From an uncultured Actinomycetes bacterium (lineage in GTDB: Bacteria > Actinomycetota > Actinomycetes > Nanopelagicales > Nanopelagicaceae), in the NCBI GenBank assembly GCA_903928745.1, contig CAIYRR010000084.1, positions 1 through 46,407 of the forward strand: 46,407 bases of DNA, read 5' to 3'. This document shows positions 1 to 8,306 of this stretch, piece by piece. The position numbers and the translations under genes are program-made. Position 1 is the stretch's first letter; every line of letters starts with the position of its first letter. Below the pieces are notes generated by a model. It made no database searches. It was not told the origin of the DNA and was given only the letters and a program-made list of their open reading frames with translations.

Positions 1-144
1 GCTTGGCGTAAGGATTTGAACCTTCGAAGGTATGGGGATTTACAGAAATACCTCGGCATGAAAAGTCTTACTGGTGGCGGGTGAAGGATTTGAACCTTCG
101 AAGGTATGGGGATTTACAGAAATACCTCGGCATGAAAAGTCTTA
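1..144 (-). repeat. 74-bp tandem repeats downstream of tRNA-Tyr carrying its 3' half
   Basis: A unit at 71-144 is repeated with a 74-bp period; positions 10-70 match 84-144 without a mismatch, and 145-178 inside the tRNA gene is the third copy of the shared part. Read on the minus strand, each unit holds the anticodon-loop and 3' anticodon-stem sequence of tRNA-Tyr, a shortened variable region, the complete T arm, and (in the 71-144 copy) the 3' acceptor strand with CCA. The 5' acceptor strand and D arm are missing. Within the unit GAGGTAT can pair with ATACCTT around a 14-nt loop, so a hairpin replaces the anticodon arm. The outermost copy diverges at positions 1-9 and meets the window edge, so the total copy number is unknown. 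Confidence 0.9.
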
Positions 145-145
145 C

Positions 146-230
146 TGGTGGCGGGTGAAGGATTTGAACCTTCGAAGGCAGAGCCGGGGGATTTACAGTC
201 CCCTCCCATTGGCCGCTCGGGCAACCCGCC
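146..230 (-). tRNA. tRNA-Tyr (GTA anticodon)
   Basis: Read on the minus strand from 230, the 7-bp acceptor stem GGCGGGT/ACCCGCC closes, the anticodon stem GGGGA/TCCCC encloses the loop CTGTAAA (anticodon GTA), and the T arm is GAAGG-TTCAAAT-CCTTC. A long variable arm makes it class II, as expected for bacterial tRNA-Tyr. CCA is encoded (146-148 in + strand coordinates). The gene is 82 nt without CCA. It is transcribed leftward into the 74-bp repeats that copy its 3' half. No convincing -10 box is seen at the right distance upstream. Confidence 0.96.
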
Positions 231-323: not shown

Positions 324-412
324 TCGCACGTTTTCACTTGTTCTGATCATTCGTAAAGCACTCCCCCGAGTCGAATTATGCCGTGAGATTACTTTCTAAT
401 ATGGTCGGGTAT

Positions 413-1819
413 ATGCACAAGCCCACGATTATCCTGGCAACCAGCAATGGTGTCGGAATGGGTCACTTGGCGCGAGCAACAGCTATTGCAACCGAACTTA
501 AAGCTTTTGCCAACCCCATCATCGTTTCTATGGCCGGTGGAATTGCGGAGATACCATCCGCTCTTGATGTTCGCTGTGAATACATTCCGGGACGAGATCG
601 CAATTGGATGAGCCCGATGGCTTGGAATAACTATTTACGAGATCGCTTACTTGCTCTGATAGAAGAAACTGATGCAAAGCTCATCTCTTTCGATGGCGTG
701 GTTCCATATACGGGATTCTTAGCGATGAAGGAAACCAAACCGGAGATTCCTCTGATTTGGATGCGTCGTGGATTATGGAAAAAGACGCCACAGAGATTGG
801 CGCTTTACCTGCAGACAAAGTTAGTGGATTCAATTATTGAACCCGGAGATTTTGCTCATGAGTACGACAAGGGACCAACGGCCCAACGTGGTGATTCTAT
901 TTTGACTTCCCCGGTCTCTCTCTTTGATTCGACAACAGCACTCTCGCGTTCGGATGCGCGAAGCGCTTTAGGTCTGGATGTAGATCGCCCCGCCGTCCTT
1001 GTGCAACTTGGGACAGGTGAAACAGATATGAATCAAAAGATGACTGCAGTGCTCAACGGATTAGTAGGTTGGAAAGATTTGCAAGTAGTCCTTACCAAAG
1101 CTCCGGTAGATAAAGATGGTAAATCTCTAATTCCTGAAGATCTAGATGTGAAAGTCATTCGGTATTTTCCACTTGCAAGAGTTTTGCAAGCTTTTGACGG
1201 TGCAATAGGGGCCACCGGATACAACACCGTTCACGAATTACTGCCTGCAAGAATCCCAACTGTTTTGGTTTCCACGATTTGTAACACCGATGACCAAGAA
1301 CTTAGAGCACAATGGTGTGGTGATTTTGGCTATGCCCTTAATGCAGATCAAGCCAACATGGCAGATGTGACTGCAAAGGTGCGCCAACTTCAAGATCCTG
1401 TTGTGCGAGATCAGCTCTCAGGTAAGTGCAAAGAGCTTCCAGCCACTTTGGGGGCAATTGAAATTGCGCGCATTCTCGTTGATACCGCATTGTCTGGAAG
1501 TGCAAACCTTGAAGGAACCCACAAGTTTCATTTAGGACCAGTAAGGCGATATGCCAGAGTCTCGTTAAGTTGGGCTACTGCCATCTTCCGAAAGATGCGT
1601 CCATATAAATTGGTGAAGAAAGTTGATTCACTCCCCGCAATTTGGAGCGATGAAACGGCATCGGTTCCCCTTCGGGCATTTATTAACAGTCAAACACGCT
1701 TTGAACACCTCCTAGCTGGTTCCTCTCCACGCTATCGTCAAGCACGTGAAGCGATTGCCTATCGGGCCTACGGTCAATTAGTGGCTTCAGGTGCATCGAA
1801 ATCAGGCACACATGAGTGA
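413..1819 (+). CDS. GT-B fold glycosyltransferase (MurG/UGT-like)
   Basis: Predicted cytoplasmic glycosyltransferase that would move a sugar from a nucleotide-sugar donor to an unidentified acceptor. The N-terminus has the GT-B pattern: a beta strand followed by the glycine-rich loop GVGMGHLARA (about residues 13-22). A second Rossmann half carries the LVQLGTGETDMN region and GATGYNTVHELLPARIPTVL, which resembles the donor-binding segment of GT1/GT28 enzymes. Beyond about residue 370 a tail of roughly 100 residues matches nothing I recognise. The start is uncertain: GTG 383, ATG 401 and ATG 413 are in frame. I chose 413 because homology begins there and a TAATAT box at 397-402 sits 10 nt upstream. 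The next gene overlaps its stop, so the three glycosyltransferases look like one operon. Substrate unknown. Confidence 0.8.
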   Translation: MHKPTIILATSNGVGMGHLARATAIATELKAFANPIIVSMAGGIAEIPSALDVRCEYIPGRDRNWMSPMAWNNYLRDRLLALIEETDAKLISFDGVVPYTGFLAMKETKPEIPLIWMRRGLWKKTPQRLALYLQTKLVDSIIEPGDFAHEYDKGPTAQRGDSILTSPVSLFDSTTALSRSDARSALGLDVDRPAVLVQLGTGETDMNQKMTAVLNGLVGWKDLQVVLTKAPVDKDGKSLIPEDLDVKVIRYFPLARVLQAFDGAIGATGYNTVHELLPARIPTVLVSTICNTDDQELRAQWCGDFGYALNADQANMADVTAKVRQLQDPVVRDQLSGKCKELPATLGAIEIARILVDTALSGSANLEGTHKFHLGPVRRYARVSLSWATAIFRKMRPYKLVKKVDSLPAIWSDETASVPLRAFINSQTRFEHLLAGSSPRYRQAREAIAYRAYGQLVASGASKSGTHE

Positions 1820-2612
1820 AATTAAATACGCCTCCGCTCAAGAGGAATTTTCGGCTATTTCCAAAGCCCGACAAGAAAGACAAGCACAGATCTCTACATA
1901 CCCAACTCTGTCAGTGTTAATTTCTAGCGCGCGTCCAAGTGATTTATTGGCGATCATGCTGCAACTTGAAAAACAGACTCTTTCTCAATTTCAACTCGTT
2001 ATCGGTCTCCATAATTTCGACTTGACCCGTGCACATCGGTCGCAAATTAAAATCTTGGAGAAAAGAAATATCGAAGTCATCACCGAATACTTTGATGAAT
2101 CTTTTACACTTGGCAAAATCCTGACGAGCCTGGGGAAAATTTCGCATGGTGAATACATCGCAAAGATGGATGATGACGATATCTATGGTCCACATCATCT
2201 GAGCGATCTCCTCGAATTGATCATCCTTAAGCAAGCAGATGCTGTCGGACGAGCGATGAATTTTGTTTACGTTGAAGCTCTTGATTTGACGGTAAGACGA
2301 ATGACATCCCAAGGTATTTCAATGGCAAATGTTTGGGCAGACTGGGTTTGTGGAGGAACAATTCTCGCAAAGCGCTCTAGCGCAGAAGGCGCTGGTTGGT
2401 TCGGTGCTGGCAAAAGCGCCGTCGATACCTTCATTCTTCAAGGAATTAAATCAAATGGTGGAAAGATTTGGCGCACTTACGGGGCTGGATACATCTACCG
2501 TAGAAGCATTGCAGCCCAGACCTACATCACGAATTATTCAAAATACTTACGAGCAAATGTAGAACAAAGTGTTGGTACTTGGCCACATGAAGAATTTGGG
2601 ACGGGTCACTGA
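1812..2612 (+). CDS. GT-A (family 2-like) glycosyltransferase
   Basis: Probable nucleotide-sugar-dependent glycosyltransferase of 266 residues. TLSVLISSARPSDLLAIML at the N-terminus is the usual first strand and helix of GT2 enzymes. KMDDDDIYGPHHL (acidic run near residues 120-123) is the DXD-type metal and donor site. The middle section HGEYIAKMDDDD follows the common pattern in which the acidic site ends a beta strand. I chose ATG 1812 because it overlaps the previous stop as ATGAGTGA; an upstream ATG at 1791 lies deeper inside the previous gene. No membrane segments are visible, so it probably works at the cytoplasmic face. Acceptor and sugar unknown. Confidence 0.82.
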   Translation: MSEIKYASAQEEFSAISKARQERQAQISTYPTLSVLISSARPSDLLAIMLQLEKQTLSQFQLVIGLHNFDLTRAHRSQIKILEKRNIEVITEYFDESFTLGKILTSLGKISHGEYIAKMDDDDIYGPHHLSDLLELIILKQADAVGRAMNFVYVEALDLTVRRMTSQGISMANVWADWVCGGTILAKRSSAEGAGWFGAGKSAVDTFILQGIKSNGGKIWRTYGAGYIYRRSIAAQTYITNYSKYLRANVEQSVGTWPHEEFGTGH

Positions 2613-2617
2613 TAATC

Positions 2618-4141
2618 ATGAAAACTATCGCCTTTAGATACAACAGACCAAGTGATCTCGAATTAGTTGAGAAGCCAACCAAGAGCGTTGCCGTAATCAT
2701 CTCCTGCCGAGATGGCCAAGAAAAACTCAACCTCACTCTTGCCTCGTTAGCCGCCCAGACTTATCCCAAGAAACTCTTGGCTGTTTACGTCGTCGATGAC
2801 GGATCTAACCCTGCAATTAAACTTCCTAAGATTCGCCCTGCCAATACAACCATTATTAAATTTGGTAACTCTCTCACCAAGTGGGGCAAGGCCGAGGCAA
2901 CCAACTTTGCAGCCTCTAAATTAAAGGAAGAGATCTTCTGGTTTTTAGATGCTGACATGGTGCTAGAGCCAAATCACTTGGCACAACACATGAAATGGCA
3001 CCATGATGACGAGGATTACTTAGTTCTTGGTTGGAAGCGCTTTGTTCAAGAGTGGAATTACACTCCACAAGAACTATTTTCTAGCCTGGAAAACGGCGGT
3101 TTTCAGGGGCTTCATCCTGTAAGTGAAGTCAAGGAGCAATGGGAAGCCCTGGTCACAGACACCGATGATCTTCGTAGCGCAACTTTGGCCAGTTTCCGAA
3201 CCCTTGTCGGTGCCACATTTTCGATGACCAGAAAAAGCTGGCTCTCTGTCGGCGGATATAACCCTGAATTCAAACTGGGCAATGACACAGAGTTAGGTTG
3301 GCGCACTCTCATTAATGGATTGCGTTATGTACCTGAACGTGAGGCACATTCTTGGCATTTGGGGCTAACAAAGATTGAAACCAACCGCGACCAAGTCATC
3401 GCACACAATCGCCCGATCTTCGCAAATTATATTCCTGGCTTTGGGTACATGCGAAAAGGTTCAGACTTCGACTTAAAAGTTCCAGACTTTGAAGTGATTG
3501 TTGATTGCCGAGTTATGAGCGCTCAATCTTTTGTCAAACTAGTTAAAGACTTCAACTCAAAAGTTCACACGCAAGCCAGATACCGATTACTGGGGCCATG
3601 GACAGAACTAGCCAGCAGATACAGCGTGAACGAGGATGAACATGAGCAGTTGCGTTCTATCTATCGCTTCTGCTTTGGTGATGCCAAGTTTGCTTTCAAA
3701 AGCCTCGATGGTGATCAACATCTATCAATAAATGAAATTCTCTCAATGGTCAAAGTTAAGGCCACTCCGTTCATCTTCTTTACTGAAGGCAACCCAGATC
3801 CAGGTGTCATCTATTCAGGAATGCACGCGCACATTCTCAGTACCGGAAATGGACTCGAAGGAGTTGTTGATCCATTAGACCAGAGAACATTTGTTGCCCT
3901 GGCGCCTGCTCTGAGTCGAGCACAAAGAATTGGTGGCAACCTCCAGGAAAATATTCAAAATGGTTGGGGTTTGCGTTGGCAAGATGTCAGTCAATTTGAT
4001 TTCGGACTACCGATGCCAAGACCGACAGTGCGTCAATTCTTCAGAATGGTCTTTGCATCACTTAAGAGAATGCGACATCCAGCAGATCTCTTGCACTTAG
4101 CACCGAAGGCGCTGAGAGTTCTACGACTTAAGAAACGCTAG
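2618..4141 (+). CDS. Family 2 glycosyltransferase with long C-terminal region
   Basis: A 507-residue glycosyltransferase. The N-terminal GT-A domain has VAVIISCRDGQ, VVDDGS (residues 58-63), FLDADMVLEPNH (DXD at 111-113) and a later GNDTELGWR segment that fits the family's ED-type catalytic region. From about residue 290 there is a second region of about 200 residues, beginning near the DFEVIVDCRV segment, whose role I cannot name; it might be a second, degenerate glycosyltransferase domain. The gene starts 5 bp after the previous stop. Its stop shares the palindrome CTAG with the stop of the convergent acyltransferase. The context suggests assembly of a cell-surface glycan. Confidence 0.84.
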   Translation: MKTIAFRYNRPSDLELVEKPTKSVAVIISCRDGQEKLNLTLASLAAQTYPKKLLAVYVVDDGSNPAIKLPKIRPANTTIIKFGNSLTKWGKAEATNFAASKLKEEIFWFLDADMVLEPNHLAQHMKWHHDDEDYLVLGWKRFVQEWNYTPQELFSSLENGGFQGLHPVSEVKEQWEALVTDTDDLRSATLASFRTLVGATFSMTRKSWLSVGGYNPEFKLGNDTELGWRTLINGLRYVPEREAHSWHLGLTKIETNRDQVIAHNRPIFANYIPGFGYMRKGSDFDLKVPDFEVIVDCRVMSAQSFVKLVKDFNSKVHTQARYRLLGPWTELASRYSVNEDEHEQLRSIYRFCFGDAKFAFKSLDGDQHLSINEILSMVKVKATPFIFFTEGNPDPGVIYSGMHAHILSTGNGLEGVVDPLDQRTFVALAPALSRAQRIGGNLQENIQNGWGLRWQDVSQFDFGLPMPRPTVRQFFRMVFASLKRMRHPADLLHLAPKALRVLRLKKR

Positions 4142-5988
4142 GCCACTTTATTTAGCGCTGCACTTAACTGCGCGACCAACGTACGCGTAAATGCGACTGA
4201 TAAATGAGAATTATCTCGATAAACATTTACTCCACCTTTTACTGCGGGGCAAATATCTCCTGTGCAAATCCAATCCAATGGATCAATAAATGTCGCTCCA
4301 AATTTAAGTGCAATTTCCTTTGTTGCCAGACTTGCGGGTGTTCGCGTACGGCTCACATCACAATGAGTTGGATCGCTCACGTGAACGCTCAAACAACTCG
4401 GCGAATTCTGCCCCGGGTACGGGGTATCTCCAATTACAACAACCTTCAGGCCTTCTGCTTGCAATTTACCCATAAAGCTACTGAATCCAGCGCTCCATGT
4501 ATCGACGTACGAAGTAGTTGGTGAAGCCACTTTGGCCGTAATTTGCGTGGCATCGGAAATGATCACGTATTGAGGCTTTTCTGCTGCCAATTGCTTGGGC
4601 AATACGGACTGCCACCGAGAACATTCGCGATCAGTTATTCCACCTCGGAGTAGAGCAAGATCAGTTGCCGGGCATCCGCTTTTTGTGAAGGTTACTAATT
4701 TCTTCTTGGTGTTTTTGGCATACTGCTCAAGCGCGGGGAACCATTGCGCCCCATGAGAGTCTCCAATCAAAATGATCTTCGAATTACTTGTCTTGTCACC
4801 GAAGATACATGAAGGCTTGGGTTGGGATTCCTTAAATGGGAGATGGCAACCATCGGAATAAATCACAGGGCTACTCAAGTCAAAAGTGATCGAACTAGGT
4901 CCGTGATTGAAAGAGAAACTACTCACTGCGAAAATCGAAATAGCTAAACCACCGATGGCAAAATAGGTCGGGATCCAACGTTTTCGAAATCCTCCAATTC
5001 TATGGAACTTTAGTTCAACATAGACGTGCAATAAATGTGAAAGACCAACGGCAATAGCTATCAGGAAAACTCGAGAAATTAATGAAGGTTCGGGGCTTCG
5101 GAAATTGAGAATAACAATGAGTGGCCAGTGCACTAGATAGAGCGGGAAAGAAAGATCGCCTAGCCATTCTAAGAATTTATTGGTGGATAATTTGGCATCG
5201 GCAAGAATTACTAGCCCGGCAGATACAACGGGAAGCACGGTCGTTACTCCCGGAGTTGGCTGATCGCTGGTAATCAGGTAAACACTGAGAAAGAGTCCGG
5301 CCCATCCGAATAACGCTATTAAGTTCTTCTTAGAACTTTCTATCGTTTTGTGTGAAACTGCCAAACTGGCACCCAATAGAAGTTCCCATGCGCGTGATGT
5401 TGGAAGATAGAAAGAGTAAACCTCCGACAAACTGTAGGTAGTAATAAAGGCAAGAACGAGAAAAAGCGCGGTTAATGCGTAGATGGCCTTTTTCTTGTTG
5501 CGAAGGAAAAGTAGAAACATCAATGGCCACGCTAAATAGAACTGCTCTTCAACTCCCAGAGACCAATAATGAAGAAACGGGGATGGATTGAGGGACTGGC
5601 TTAAGTAATTTGTATTTTCATTGAGGAAAACGAGATTCGGAATCGTAAGTAGAACACCGATGCCTTCCACCATATATTGATGTAGATCTAGAGGTGAGAG
5701 CAAGAGTGAGCCAGCAAAGGAGATGCCAAGAAGTGCCAGAAGGCTTACAGGAAGAATTCGGCGCGCACGGTTTTGATAGAAGGAAATAATTTGCTGGCGG
5801 ACAGTTCCTGTACCCGTTTGAAGTTTGCGAGTGATAACAAAACCTGAAATCACGAAAAATACGTCTACTCCAAGAAATCCACCGCTGAAACCGCTGATGT
5901 TGTAGTGATAGAAAATCACCAGCAATACGGAGACTCCACGAAGAGCCTGAATATCCCGGCGCTTGGAGTAAGTTTTTGCGGAAGTCAT
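4138..5988 (-). CDS. OafA/YrhL-type acyltransferase with C-terminal SGNH domain
   Basis: A membrane acyltransferase of 616 residues that would O-acylate a cell-envelope glycan. Residues 1 to about 350 form an acyltransferase-3 domain: RDIQALRGVSVLLVIFYHY with the conserved His near 28, GVDVFFVISGF (40-50), then about ten hydrophobic helices. A linker and one more helix lead to an extracytoplasmic SGNH hydrolase-like domain with IGDSHGAQWFP near residue 405 (nucleophile Ser) and DNSH at 592-595 (Asp/His pair). This two-domain build is standard for polysaccharide O-acetyltransferases. A TAGACT box sits 7 nt before the ATG, so the mRNA is probably leaderless. Its convergent position against three glycosyltransferases suggests it decorates their product. 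Confidence 0.9.
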   Translation of the reverse strand: MTSAKTYSKRRDIQALRGVSVLLVIFYHYNISGFSGGFLGVDVFFVISGFVITRKLQTGTGTVRQQIISFYQNRARRILPVSLLALLGISFAGSLLLSPLDLHQYMVEGIGVLLTIPNLVFLNENTNYLSQSLNPSPFLHYWSLGVEEQFYLAWPLMFLLFLRNKKKAIYALTALFLVLAFITTYSLSEVYSFYLPTSRAWELLLGASLAVSHKTIESSKKNLIALFGWAGLFLSVYLITSDQPTPGVTTVLPVVSAGLVILADAKLSTNKFLEWLGDLSFPLYLVHWPLIVILNFRSPEPSLISRVFLIAIAVGLSHLLHVYVELKFHRIGGFRKRWIPTYFAIGGLAISIFAVSSFSFNHGPSSITFDLSSPVIYSDGCHLPFKESQPKPSCIFGDKTSNSKIILIGDSHGAQWFPALEQYAKNTKKKLVTFTKSGCPATDLALLRGGITDRECSRWQSVLPKQLAAEKPQYVIISDATQITAKVASPTTSYVDTWSAGFSSFMGKLQAEGLKVVVIGDTPYPGQNSPSCLSVHVSDPTHCDVSRTRTPASLATKEIALKFGATFIDPLDWICTGDICPAVKGGVNVYRDNSHLSVAFTRTLVAQLSAALNKVA

Positions 5989-5995
5989 TGGCGGC

Positions 5996-6001
5996 AGTCT
6001 A
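5996..6001 (-). promoter_or_regulatory. -10 box TAGACT of the acyltransferase gene
   Basis: TAGACT on the minus strand ends 7 nt before the ATG at 5988. That spacing puts the transcription start at or next to the start codon, which would give a leaderless mRNA. No strong -35 is seen. Confidence 0.5.
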
Positions 6002-6030
6002 CAGGGCTCCCTTTTTAGGCGCTATATGCG

Positions 6031-6036
6031 TACCGT
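6031..6036 (+). promoter_or_regulatory. -10 box TACCGT of the acyl-CoA dehydrogenase gene
   Basis: TACCGT ends 6 nt before ATG 6043, again predicting a leaderless message. The divergent acyltransferase promoter shares this 54-bp intergenic region. TATATG at 6023-6028 is an alternative -10 that would leave a short leader. Confidence 0.45.
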
Positions 6037-6042
6037 AGTGCC

Positions 6043-7269
6043 ATGGAGTTTAGTAATAGCGCGAAAGCACAGGAATATCTCAACTTGCTTCAAAGTTTTA
6101 TGGATCAGAAAGTCTTTCCCTCGGAAACGATTTATCACAAGCAACGTGAAGCATTGATGGCTTCTGGTGAGCCACATTCACTCCCTGCCATTATTGAAGA
6201 ACTGAAAGAATCCGCCCGAGCAAAAGGTTTATGGAATCTATTTCTGCCTGACTCCCATGATCCAAACCATGGTTTAAGTGTTACCGATTATGCAGTGTTA
6301 GCCGAACTCACTGGTTGGTCACCAGAAATTGCACCTGAAGTTCTCAATTGTTCCGCTCCTGATACAGGAAATATGGAAGTTTTGCATTTATTTGGAAGTG
6401 AAGCCCAAAAGAAAGAATGGCTCGAGCCTTTATTAAATGGCGAGATACGTTCTGGATTTGCTATGACCGAGCCTGACATTGCCTCCAGTGATGCCAGGAA
6501 TATTTCCACCTCCATTGTGCGCCATGGCGATGAATACGTCATCAACGGACGCAAATGGTGGACCACCGGCGCAATGGATCCACGATGTCAGGTATTAATC
6601 GTCATGGGAGTTACGGACCCGGACGCTGATTCTCATCATCGTCAATCAATGGTCTTAGTGCCATTGAATACCCCAGGCGTGAGTATTGTCAGAAATCTTT
6701 CGGTATTTGGTTATCAAGATCAACACGGTCATGCTGAAATTCTTTTTGAGCAAGTAAAAGTTCCTGTTACCAACTTGATAGGTGCTCAAGGTTCTGGTTT
6801 TGAAATTGCACAGGCTCGGCTCGGACCTGGACGAGTACATCACTGCATGCGCGCAATTGGAATGGCAGAGCGCGCACTGTCGTTGATGATTGATCGCGCA
6901 GGAGAGCGCAAAACTTTTGGAAGCGCACTTGCTGCTCAAGGAATTATTCAAGAGTGGATCGCCAATGCACGTATAGATATTGAACAAGCCCGTCTGCTTG
7001 TTCTCAAGACAGCATGGATGATTGACACCGTCGGGGCAAAAGCTGCTCGTAAGGAAATTGCTGCTATTAAAGTCGTTGTTCCACGCATGGCGCAGGAGAT
7101 TATTGACCACGCCATTCAGGTTCATGGTGGTGCAGGCGTTAGCCAAGACACTCCATTGGCTGCGATGTATGCAGGAATACGCACCTTGCGAATTGCTGAT
7201 GGCCCAGATGAAGTTCACCTACGAGATATTGCACGACTAGAACTAAAAGACAGGCACATCGCAAAATAA
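6043..7269 (+). CDS. Acyl-CoA dehydrogenase family protein (ACAD10/11-like)
   Basis: An FAD-dependent acyl-CoA dehydrogenase of 408 residues. Its features are FAMTEPDIASSD (139-150, the flavin and substrate loop), VINGRKWWTTGA (167-177), the RVHHCMRAIGMAERAL helix, ERKTFGSALAAQG, and the C-terminal VHGGAGVSQDTPLA and RIADGPDEVH that bind FAD across subunits. The IASSDARNIST and WWTTGA variants, together with the kinase-fold gene that follows, point to the ACAD10/ACAD11 branch rather than to a classical medium-chain FadE. The stop TAA and the next ATG share one base, so the two proteins are translationally coupled. Exact substrate not readable from sequence. Confidence 0.88.
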   Translation: MEFSNSAKAQEYLNLLQSFMDQKVFPSETIYHKQREALMASGEPHSLPAIIEELKESARAKGLWNLFLPDSHDPNHGLSVTDYAVLAELTGWSPEIAPEVLNCSAPDTGNMEVLHLFGSEAQKKEWLEPLLNGEIRSGFAMTEPDIASSDARNISTSIVRHGDEYVINGRKWWTTGAMDPRCQVLIVMGVTDPDADSHHRQSMVLVPLNTPGVSIVRNLSVFGYQDQHGHAEILFEQVKVPVTNLIGAQGSGFEIAQARLGPGRVHHCMRAIGMAERALSLMIDRAGERKTFGSALAAQGIIQEWIANARIDIEQARLLVLKTAWMIDTVGAKAARKEIAAIKVVVPRMAQEIIDHAIQVHGGAGVSQDTPLAAMYAGIRTLRIADGPDEVHLRDIARLELKDRHIAK

Positions 7270-8306
7270 TGGCTCTTGAACTTGGCGATGTACGCGCCGA
7301 AGATTCATTTGATATAGATGCGGTACATCAGTGGTTGCTGAAGAATTCAAATGCCCCAAGCGATAAACCAAAGGTTCATCAATTTGGTTCAGGTGCTTCC
7401 AACCTAACGTATCTGCTCACATATCAAGATTGCGAGCTCATACTTAGGCGGCCACCTGTAGGTACCAAGGCAGCGTCGGCACATGACATGAAGAGAGAAT
7501 TCTTCATCCAACAAGCTCTGCATCCGCAATATCCACTCACTCCAGAAGTTGTTGCCCTTTGCCAAGATCCTTCAGTTATTGGCTCAGATTTCTATGTTAT
7601 GAAAAAAATTGATGGCACTATCTTCCGTCGTGATCTGCCAAAAGGGTTATCGCTCAATATCGATCAAGTTTCTCTAATCGGAAATCTGGTAATCGATGGC
7701 TTGGTCGCACTGCATCATGTTGAGTCAGAGACTCTTTCACAATTGAGCAAGGGTCCTGGTTATGTGCAGCGACAAGTAGATGGTTGGTCGCGTAGATATA
7801 GAAAAGCACTCACACCTGATGTTCTAGATGGTGAGACGCTTATGAAATGGTTAGATGAAAATCAACCAGAAGATGTTGCCTCATGTGTTATTCACGGCGA
7901 TTGGCGTTTAGACAATATGGTTTTCAATTTAGATGCAACACCAAAATTAGTCGGAGTACTTGATTGGGAGATGGCGACAATCGGAGACCCACTGATGGAC
8001 TTAGGTTCGGCAATGGCTTACTGGATAGATGCCACAGACTCGGGTCCGATTTCTGATTTACGCAGACAACCAAGTCACCTACCGGGTATGCCAACTCGCA
8101 AAGAGTTCATAGAAAGATATTTAGAGCGATCAGAATGGAATTGTGATGACTTCACCTTCTATGAGGTCTTTGGACTTTTCCGATTAACGGTAATTTGCCA
8201 ACAAATCTGGGCCAGATACGTTGCTGGCCAAACAACAAACCCGGCCTTTGCAGGCTTCGGAGACGCGGTAAATCTATTGATTACTCGAGCCATGGGACTG
8301 ATTTGA
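7269..8306 (+). CDS. APH-fold phosphotransferase (ACAD10/11 kinase-domain type)
   Basis: A kinase-like protein of 345 residues from the aminoglycoside phosphotransferase superfamily. HQFGSGASNLTYLL (38-51) is the nucleotide-binding loop, followed by LILRRPP with the Lys/Arg region of the N-lobe. CVIHGDWRLDNMVF (206-219) is the catalytic HxDxxxxN loop (D211, N216), and GVLDWEMATIGDPLMDLG carries the metal-binding Asp at 232. GSGASNLTY and LDWEMATIGDPL are typical of the domain fused to acyl-CoA dehydrogenase in mammalian ACAD10/11, and of bacterial kinases thought to phosphorylate hydroxyacyl-CoA. Antibiotic resistance is unlikely in this context. Coupled to the upstream dehydrogenase by a 1-nt overlap. 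Confidence 0.87.
   Translation: MALELGDVRAEDSFDIDAVHQWLLKNSNAPSDKPKVHQFGSGASNLTYLLTYQDCELILRRPPVGTKAASAHDMKREFFIQQALHPQYPLTPEVVALCQDPSVIGSDFYVMKKIDGTIFRRDLPKGLSLNIDQVSLIGNLVIDGLVALHHVESETLSQLSKGPGYVQRQVDGWSRRYRKALTPDVLDGETLMKWLDENQPEDVASCVIHGDWRLDNMVFNLDATPKLVGVLDWEMATIGDPLMDLGSAMAYWIDATDSGPISDLRRQPSHLPGMPTRKEFIERYLERSEWNCDDFTFYEVFGLFRLTVICQQIWARYVAGQTTNPAFAGFGDAVNLLITRAMGLI

Follow-up and report, generated by a model that had tools for sequence, protein, structure and literature searches.

The window analysed here, an entire contig (C84) of 46,407 nucleotides from a genome of 132 contigs (1.65 Mb, 88% complete), starts with tandem copies of the 3′ half of tRNA-Tyr lying behind an intact tRNA-Tyr gene. 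Judging from sequence comparison across the Nanopelagicales, we propose that these units are probably attachment-site remnants, namely displaced tRNA 3′ halves, at an integration hot spot in tRNA-Tyr, and that unequal recombination would have amplified them.

The intact tRNA-Tyr gene (anticodon GTA) occupies positions 146-230 on the minus strand, as identified by ARAGORN, by the Rfam tRNA model RF00005 (which matches 149-230) and from the sequence, and it is the putative integration target. Its CCA is encoded in the DNA, at 148-146 on the minus strand. Directly downstream of the gene lies unit 1 (72-145, minus strand, 74 nt), which is composed of a spacer GTAAGACTTTTCATGCCGAGGTATTT, a tRNA-Tyr-like 3′ half (CTGTAAATCCCC ATA CCTTCGAAGGTTCAAATCC), and the native, type A tRNA end TTCACCCGCCACCA, and which terminates in CACCCGCCACCA. 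Unit 2 (1-71, minus strand, 71 nt) has a body identical to that of unit 1 and is cut by the contig end. Its type B′ end reads ...TTACGCCAAGC at the contig edge, and the complete homologue in contig C9 of the same genome is TTACACCAAGCCACCA. The two units are arranged head to tail, carrying anticodon-loop, T-arm and 3′-end sequence of tRNA-Tyr. On the minus strand, the 19-nt T-arm core CCTTCGAAGGTTCAAATCC is present in tRNA-Tyr at 160-178, where it is the inferred crossover partner, in unit 1 at 86-104, and in unit 2 at 12-30. The sequence GGTATTTCTGTAAATCCCCATACC (minus strand; 103-126 in unit 1 and 29-52 in unit 2), which the original prediction described as a new hairpin, forms a GGTAT/ATACC stem with an anticodon-loop-like loop. 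TRF reports a period of 74 with 2.3 copies and a 100% match across 10-178, and the 74-nt copies at 10-83 and 84-157 are identical. Accordingly, the original prediction read the tandem copies correctly, and the perfect 74-bp repeat, claimed for 61 bp, is stronger than it had stated. The repeat is far beyond chance expectation.

The general plan of a unit is a variable spacer, GCCGAGGTATTT or a variant of it, YTGTAAATCCCC-ATACC-TTCGAAGGTTCAAATCC, and then an end of type A or type B. The type A end is the native tRNA-Tyr end, and the type B end is near GCACGCCAAGCCACCA. The ATACC of the units replaces the variable arm CCGGCTCTGCC of tRNA-Tyr. Except in decayed last units, the unit boundaries lie directly 3′ of CCACCA.

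Is the array real? It stands at the window start, which is a contig end, and its copy number differs between C84 and C9, as might be expected if it were an artefact of assembling a metagenome-derived genome. C9 starts inside tRNA-Tyr, overlaps the array at 97% identity, and carries a single unit that differs from unit 2 by two substitutions; this unit ends in TTACACCAAGCCACCA / ACACCAAGCCACCA and is followed by an ICMT-family gene, so that the array in the assembled sequence of this genome measures 1-2 units. Since the genome G005 has tRNA-Tyr, two units and the same ICMT-family gene in that order on one contig, C9 very probably represents the opposite flank of this locus. Furthermore, the unit is internal to contigs of several independent projects (for example, contigs of 81 kb and 44.8 kb in other genomes), with clean species-specific variants. 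An assembly artefact, which the original prediction had itself considered as a way to fail, is therefore hardly credible.

How could one unit have become two? A crossover in silico between the T-arm core of the tRNA and that of the unit, in a one-unit ancestor, produces the first 230 nt of the window exactly, in the order tRNA, type-A unit, and original last unit. C9 equals the assumed one-unit ancestor at 133 of 135 positions. Since the tRNA would be broken in the reciprocal product, expansion alone would be expected to survive.

We also compared occupied and empty sites. In G168, the native tRNA-Tyr is followed by GTAAGACTTAAATT... / GTAAGACTTAAATTAAAATCC, representing an empty site. In G274, the 3′ half of tRNA-Tyr is replaced (CCTTCAAAGGTTCAAATCCTTTACCCGCCA) with compensation in the T stem, and the gene is followed by a cassette of about 3 kb; a DNA methylase gene and, next to it, an ORF that matched no Pfam family would make this a restriction-modification cassette. 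The far end of this cassette carries the native 3′ half, from CTGTAAATCC in the anticodon loop to CCACCA, together with the native flank. As read from the two sequences, the arrangement is the one classically produced by integration into a tRNA gene. The regenerated gene in G274 (locus L193, 3403-3485) has the T stem AAAGG/CCTTT and no encoded CCA, and the native G168 gene differs.

The units themselves also distinguish closely comparable loci. G031, which has a unit, and G041, which has none, show a precise 72-bp difference between CCACCA and the common flank CAAGATATACGAGTATGCGCG; the flank CAAGATATACGAGTATGCGCGTTAAAATTCCCAG precedes the same gene in both, and the extra 72 bp of G031 are one type-B unit. 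G242 and the unit-less G271 differ by a unit and some flank, with the endpoint 11 nt past CCA. The endpoints therefore differ between the two pairs (after CCA versus 11 nt past it), unlike one fixed crossover point, and this counts against the explanation that we favour, as does the GCCGAGGTATTT flank, which is common to most units and is not accounted for by it. In addition, the native flank TATTTATCGTT of G271 is the spacer start of the G242 unit, as expected if the spacer is partly native flank. This observation would also fit replication slippage that simply duplicated the tRNA-Tyr 3′ half in tandem, in which case no mobile element would be involved and the cassettes would be an unrelated matter at the same locus; recombination at the T-arm core accounts in full for the present change in copy number. 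However, the unit body differs consistently from the local tRNA (ATACC for CCGGCTCTGCC, and the type-B end), these differences are common to the arrays and the isolated cassette-end sites of three genera, and the GCCGAGGTATTT part is not a simple duplicated flank. We therefore regard slippage as rather unlikely, and retain attachment-site remnants as the probable origin of the units.

The surroundings of tRNA-Tyr in the relatives fit an integration site. Most relatives have conserved neighbouring genes on its 5′ side, while the gene content of the 3′ side varies strongly and includes cassettes of 1-10 kb, several of which end in displaced tRNA-Tyr 3′ halves. The cargo comprises restriction-modification, HepT/MNT toxin-antitoxin and surface-protein genes, and includes fn3 and Listeria-Bacteroides-repeat surface proteins, ADH, and DNA methylase. 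In G039, two isolated unit-core sites, 0.96 and 3.1 kb past tRNA-Tyr, bound blocks that encode MNT nucleotidyltransferases and a protein of the alcohol-dehydrogenase family, and G221 has an isolated unit-core site 1.2 kb past tRNA-Tyr. Displaced native 3′ halves lie 3.7 kb away in G030 and 2.85 kb away in G034, enclosing fn3 and Listeria-Bacteroides-repeat surface proteins. A HepT/MNT toxin-antitoxin pair stands between two complete tRNA-Tyr genes in G019, and a homologue of the G030 cargo lies behind the three units of G042. The remark in the original prediction that such repeats also arise where mobile elements integrate is supported by the isolated unit-core sites and by the G274/G168 and G031/G041 pairs.

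Several further features were observed around tRNA-Tyr. A block of 10 kb with sugar-transport and kinase genes lies between two complete tRNA-Tyr genes in G001 (L078, contig C43), and its left end, GATAGTTGATCTATATATC, is common to the tRNA-Tyr locus of G017. The complete tRNA-Tyr at that locus (L079, 339-424, contig C40) has a 3′ half with the short variable region of the unit type, CCCCATACCTTC, and may have arisen by a crossover at the anticodon loop; a second, normal tRNA-Tyr gene of G017 lies in contig C61. The motif GTAAGAC-CTCATG-AAAATGAG-CGTGA, a small inverted repeat, stands right behind tRNA-Tyr in several genomes, and other genomes share approximately ACGTGGATTCAGTTT-AAACACTGGATCTA at this place (loci L128, L136, L127, L171, L189 and L193). 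These shared motifs may be cassette left ends, or recombinase or terminator sites. In G163 (L131, contig C31, near 369 on the minus strand), a contig end shows a tRNA-Tyr 3′ half and its terminator joined to the start of an xseA-like coding sequence; either a cassette end or chimerism of the contig could explain this junction. In the window itself, about 8 kb (383-8306) with glycosyltransferase-type, SGNH/acyltransferase, acyl-CoA dehydrogenase and phosphotransferase-like genes separate tRNA-Tyr from a yajQ-like gene (8405). In many relatives this gene directly adjoins tRNA-Tyr, so that here the 5′ side, too, has acquired variation.

We next consider the distribution of the unit. Comparison of the same locus in related Nanopelagicales, as suggested with the original prediction, located the hairpin sequence (≤2 mismatches) in 11 of the 296 family genomes and 3 of the 17 genera, always behind tRNA-Tyr and in 1-3 copies per locus; the order-level search set consists of the same 296 genomes. 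Those hairpin-bearing genomes that have named records are Actinobacteria/Nanopelagicales MAGs from several projects. The shorter core CTGTAAATCCCCATACCTTCGAAGG (≤3 mismatches) occurs in 16 genomes, and the additional places are mostly single sites away from arrays. Moreover, an identical 69-nt unit is shared by G005 and G242, two genomes of different genera in which it is flanked by different genes, suggesting the horizontal movement of the segment.

Do the units function as RNA? In Escherichia coli, the tyrT operon has tandem repeats behind tRNA-Tyr that include the tRNA 3′ end and give rise to rtT. The present array resembles that design, but the length of the repeat and the copied part differ, and the units here share sequence with cassette ends. 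An actinobacterial analogue would process the pre-tRNA-Tyr transcript into unit RNAs with a hairpin, a T arm and CCA, perhaps titrating enzymes that process tRNA or bind the T arm. Pairing of the GGTAT/ATACC helix holds in 94.5% of cells, with one compensatory change (GGCAT/ATGCC in G042), the spacers are homogenised within arrays, and read-through is plausible because, in G002 and G031, the downstream genes begin a short distance away on the same strand. However, the covariation of the helix is no better than that of shuffles, as 86 of 500 reach the same level, and the C9 strain variant breaks a helix pair. Of 13 units, 7 have a fully paired T stem and 6 an incomplete one, and the folds predicted from single sequences vary between species. 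The presence of the unit in only 11 of 296 genomes, with close relatives cleanly lacking it, also argues against such a function, and the Rfam search of the array matched tRNA alone. The processed, CCA-ended fragments envisaged by the original prediction thus found no support, and an RNA function is improbable. Nothing in this analysis requires the units to function as RNA, and the array itself presumably serves no selected function.

Which agent moves the cassettes? The integrase that the original prediction suggested beside the array was not found among the cassette ORFs examined in G030, G034, G039, G221 and G274. A tyrosine integrase adjoining the array was considered and rejected, and the further PF00589 proteins of G001 and G221 were not seen in the tRNA-Tyr blocks read. 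Exactly two PF00589 proteins were counted in each of the genomes G017, G042, G039 and G019, which bear an array or a cassette, and those read, in G017 and G042, are XerC/XerD-like by sequence. Serine recombinases were absent in 15 of the 16 genomes searched, the exception being G221. A phage origin of the unit was likewise rejected, as exact-pattern scans of viral contigs with the unit hairpin, the unit 3′ half, the native tRNA-Tyr 3′ half and the T-arm/acceptor sequence yielded no match. The candidate agents are a recombinase in trans, visiting elements, Xer, or homologous recombination across the 40-85 bp tRNA repeats.

In integron arrays, cargo cassettes without an integrase of their own are stacked behind a fixed site, and each ends in a related recombination site. 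The cassettes at tRNA-Tyr are likewise integrase-less and stacked behind a fixed site, each ending in a related site, but the fixed site here is a tRNA 3′ half, and no IntI-type tyrosine recombinase was found, the PF00589 proteins of G039, G042, G017 and G019 being the two per genome described above. A full integron-like system, in which a trans-acting recombinase (possibly XerC/XerD or that of a visiting element) would stack cassettes at the 3′-half site TGTAAATCCCCATACC-TTCGAAGGTTCAAATCC and the ~70-bp units would be empty cassettes, is conceivable, and we give it a small chance.

On the reading that we prefer, attachment-site remnants amplified by unequal recombination, the array would have formed as follows. 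Small gene cassettes would recombine into the 3′ half of tRNA-Tyr, and the tRNA gene would be kept or regenerated on their entry. A displaced or cassette-borne tRNA-Tyr 3′ half, from the anticodon loop to CCA, would mark the far end of the cassette. Subsequently, a cargo-less remnant of ~70 bp, consisting of the spacer and the 3′ half, would be left beside tRNA-Tyr, and its copy number would then be altered by unequal recombination at the identical 19-21 bp T-arm sequences of the tRNA and the unit. Site-specific recombination with a recombinase in trans, and not homologous recombination alone, presumably moves the cassettes. The founder unit would be the scar of a tRNA-Tyr cassette; we infer this event, because no cassette lies between tRNA-Tyr and the array in this genome.

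The locus has counterparts among known tRNA-associated islands. In the additive flexible genomic island fGI-2 of Methylophilaceae, the last 20 bp of tRNA-Lys are repeated (PMC10872708), and fGI1 of Ca. Actinomarinales has cassettes at tRNAs (PMC7771536). As defined in these studies, such islands combine variable gene content beside a tRNA with repeats of its 3′ part, and both were found here, again in streamlined aquatic bacteria with cassettes added beside a tRNA and tRNA pieces marking the cassette ends. The repeat here is longer than in those islands, reaching from the anticodon loop to CCA, and the tRNA is immediately followed by a tandem array of cargo-less units of ~70 bp. In Islander, the endpoints of tRNA islands are a regenerated target and a displaced fragment, and the islands are integrated by tyrosine integrases (PMC4383910). 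G274 compared with G168 has the regenerated tRNA-Tyr and the displaced 3′ fragment at the island end, and the window itself retains fragments alone; unlike Islander islands, the cassettes examined (G030, G034, G039, G221 and G274) carry no integrase. Tycheposons, as outlined in PMC10872708, combine a tRNA border, a tyrosine recombinase and cargo. Within that outline, the G001 and G019 blocks, with a tRNA-Tyr gene at both ends, resemble these tRNA-bounded elements with metabolic cargo, but the blocks examined yielded no gene for a tyrosine recombinase, and most blocks are far smaller. Our partial coverage of the literature yielded no paper on the tRNA-Tyr site of Nanopelagicales. Additive tRNA islands are known, and the miniature-array variant would be new.

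These results caution against taking every tandem repeat derived from a tRNA for an RNA gene. They locate a gene-exchange site in abundant, streamlined freshwater bacteria. Since several genomes using the site yielded no dedicated recombinase, the movement of its cassettes becomes a directly testable question. The genes traded at this site are those of defence, namely restriction-modification and toxin-antitoxin systems, and those of the cell surface.
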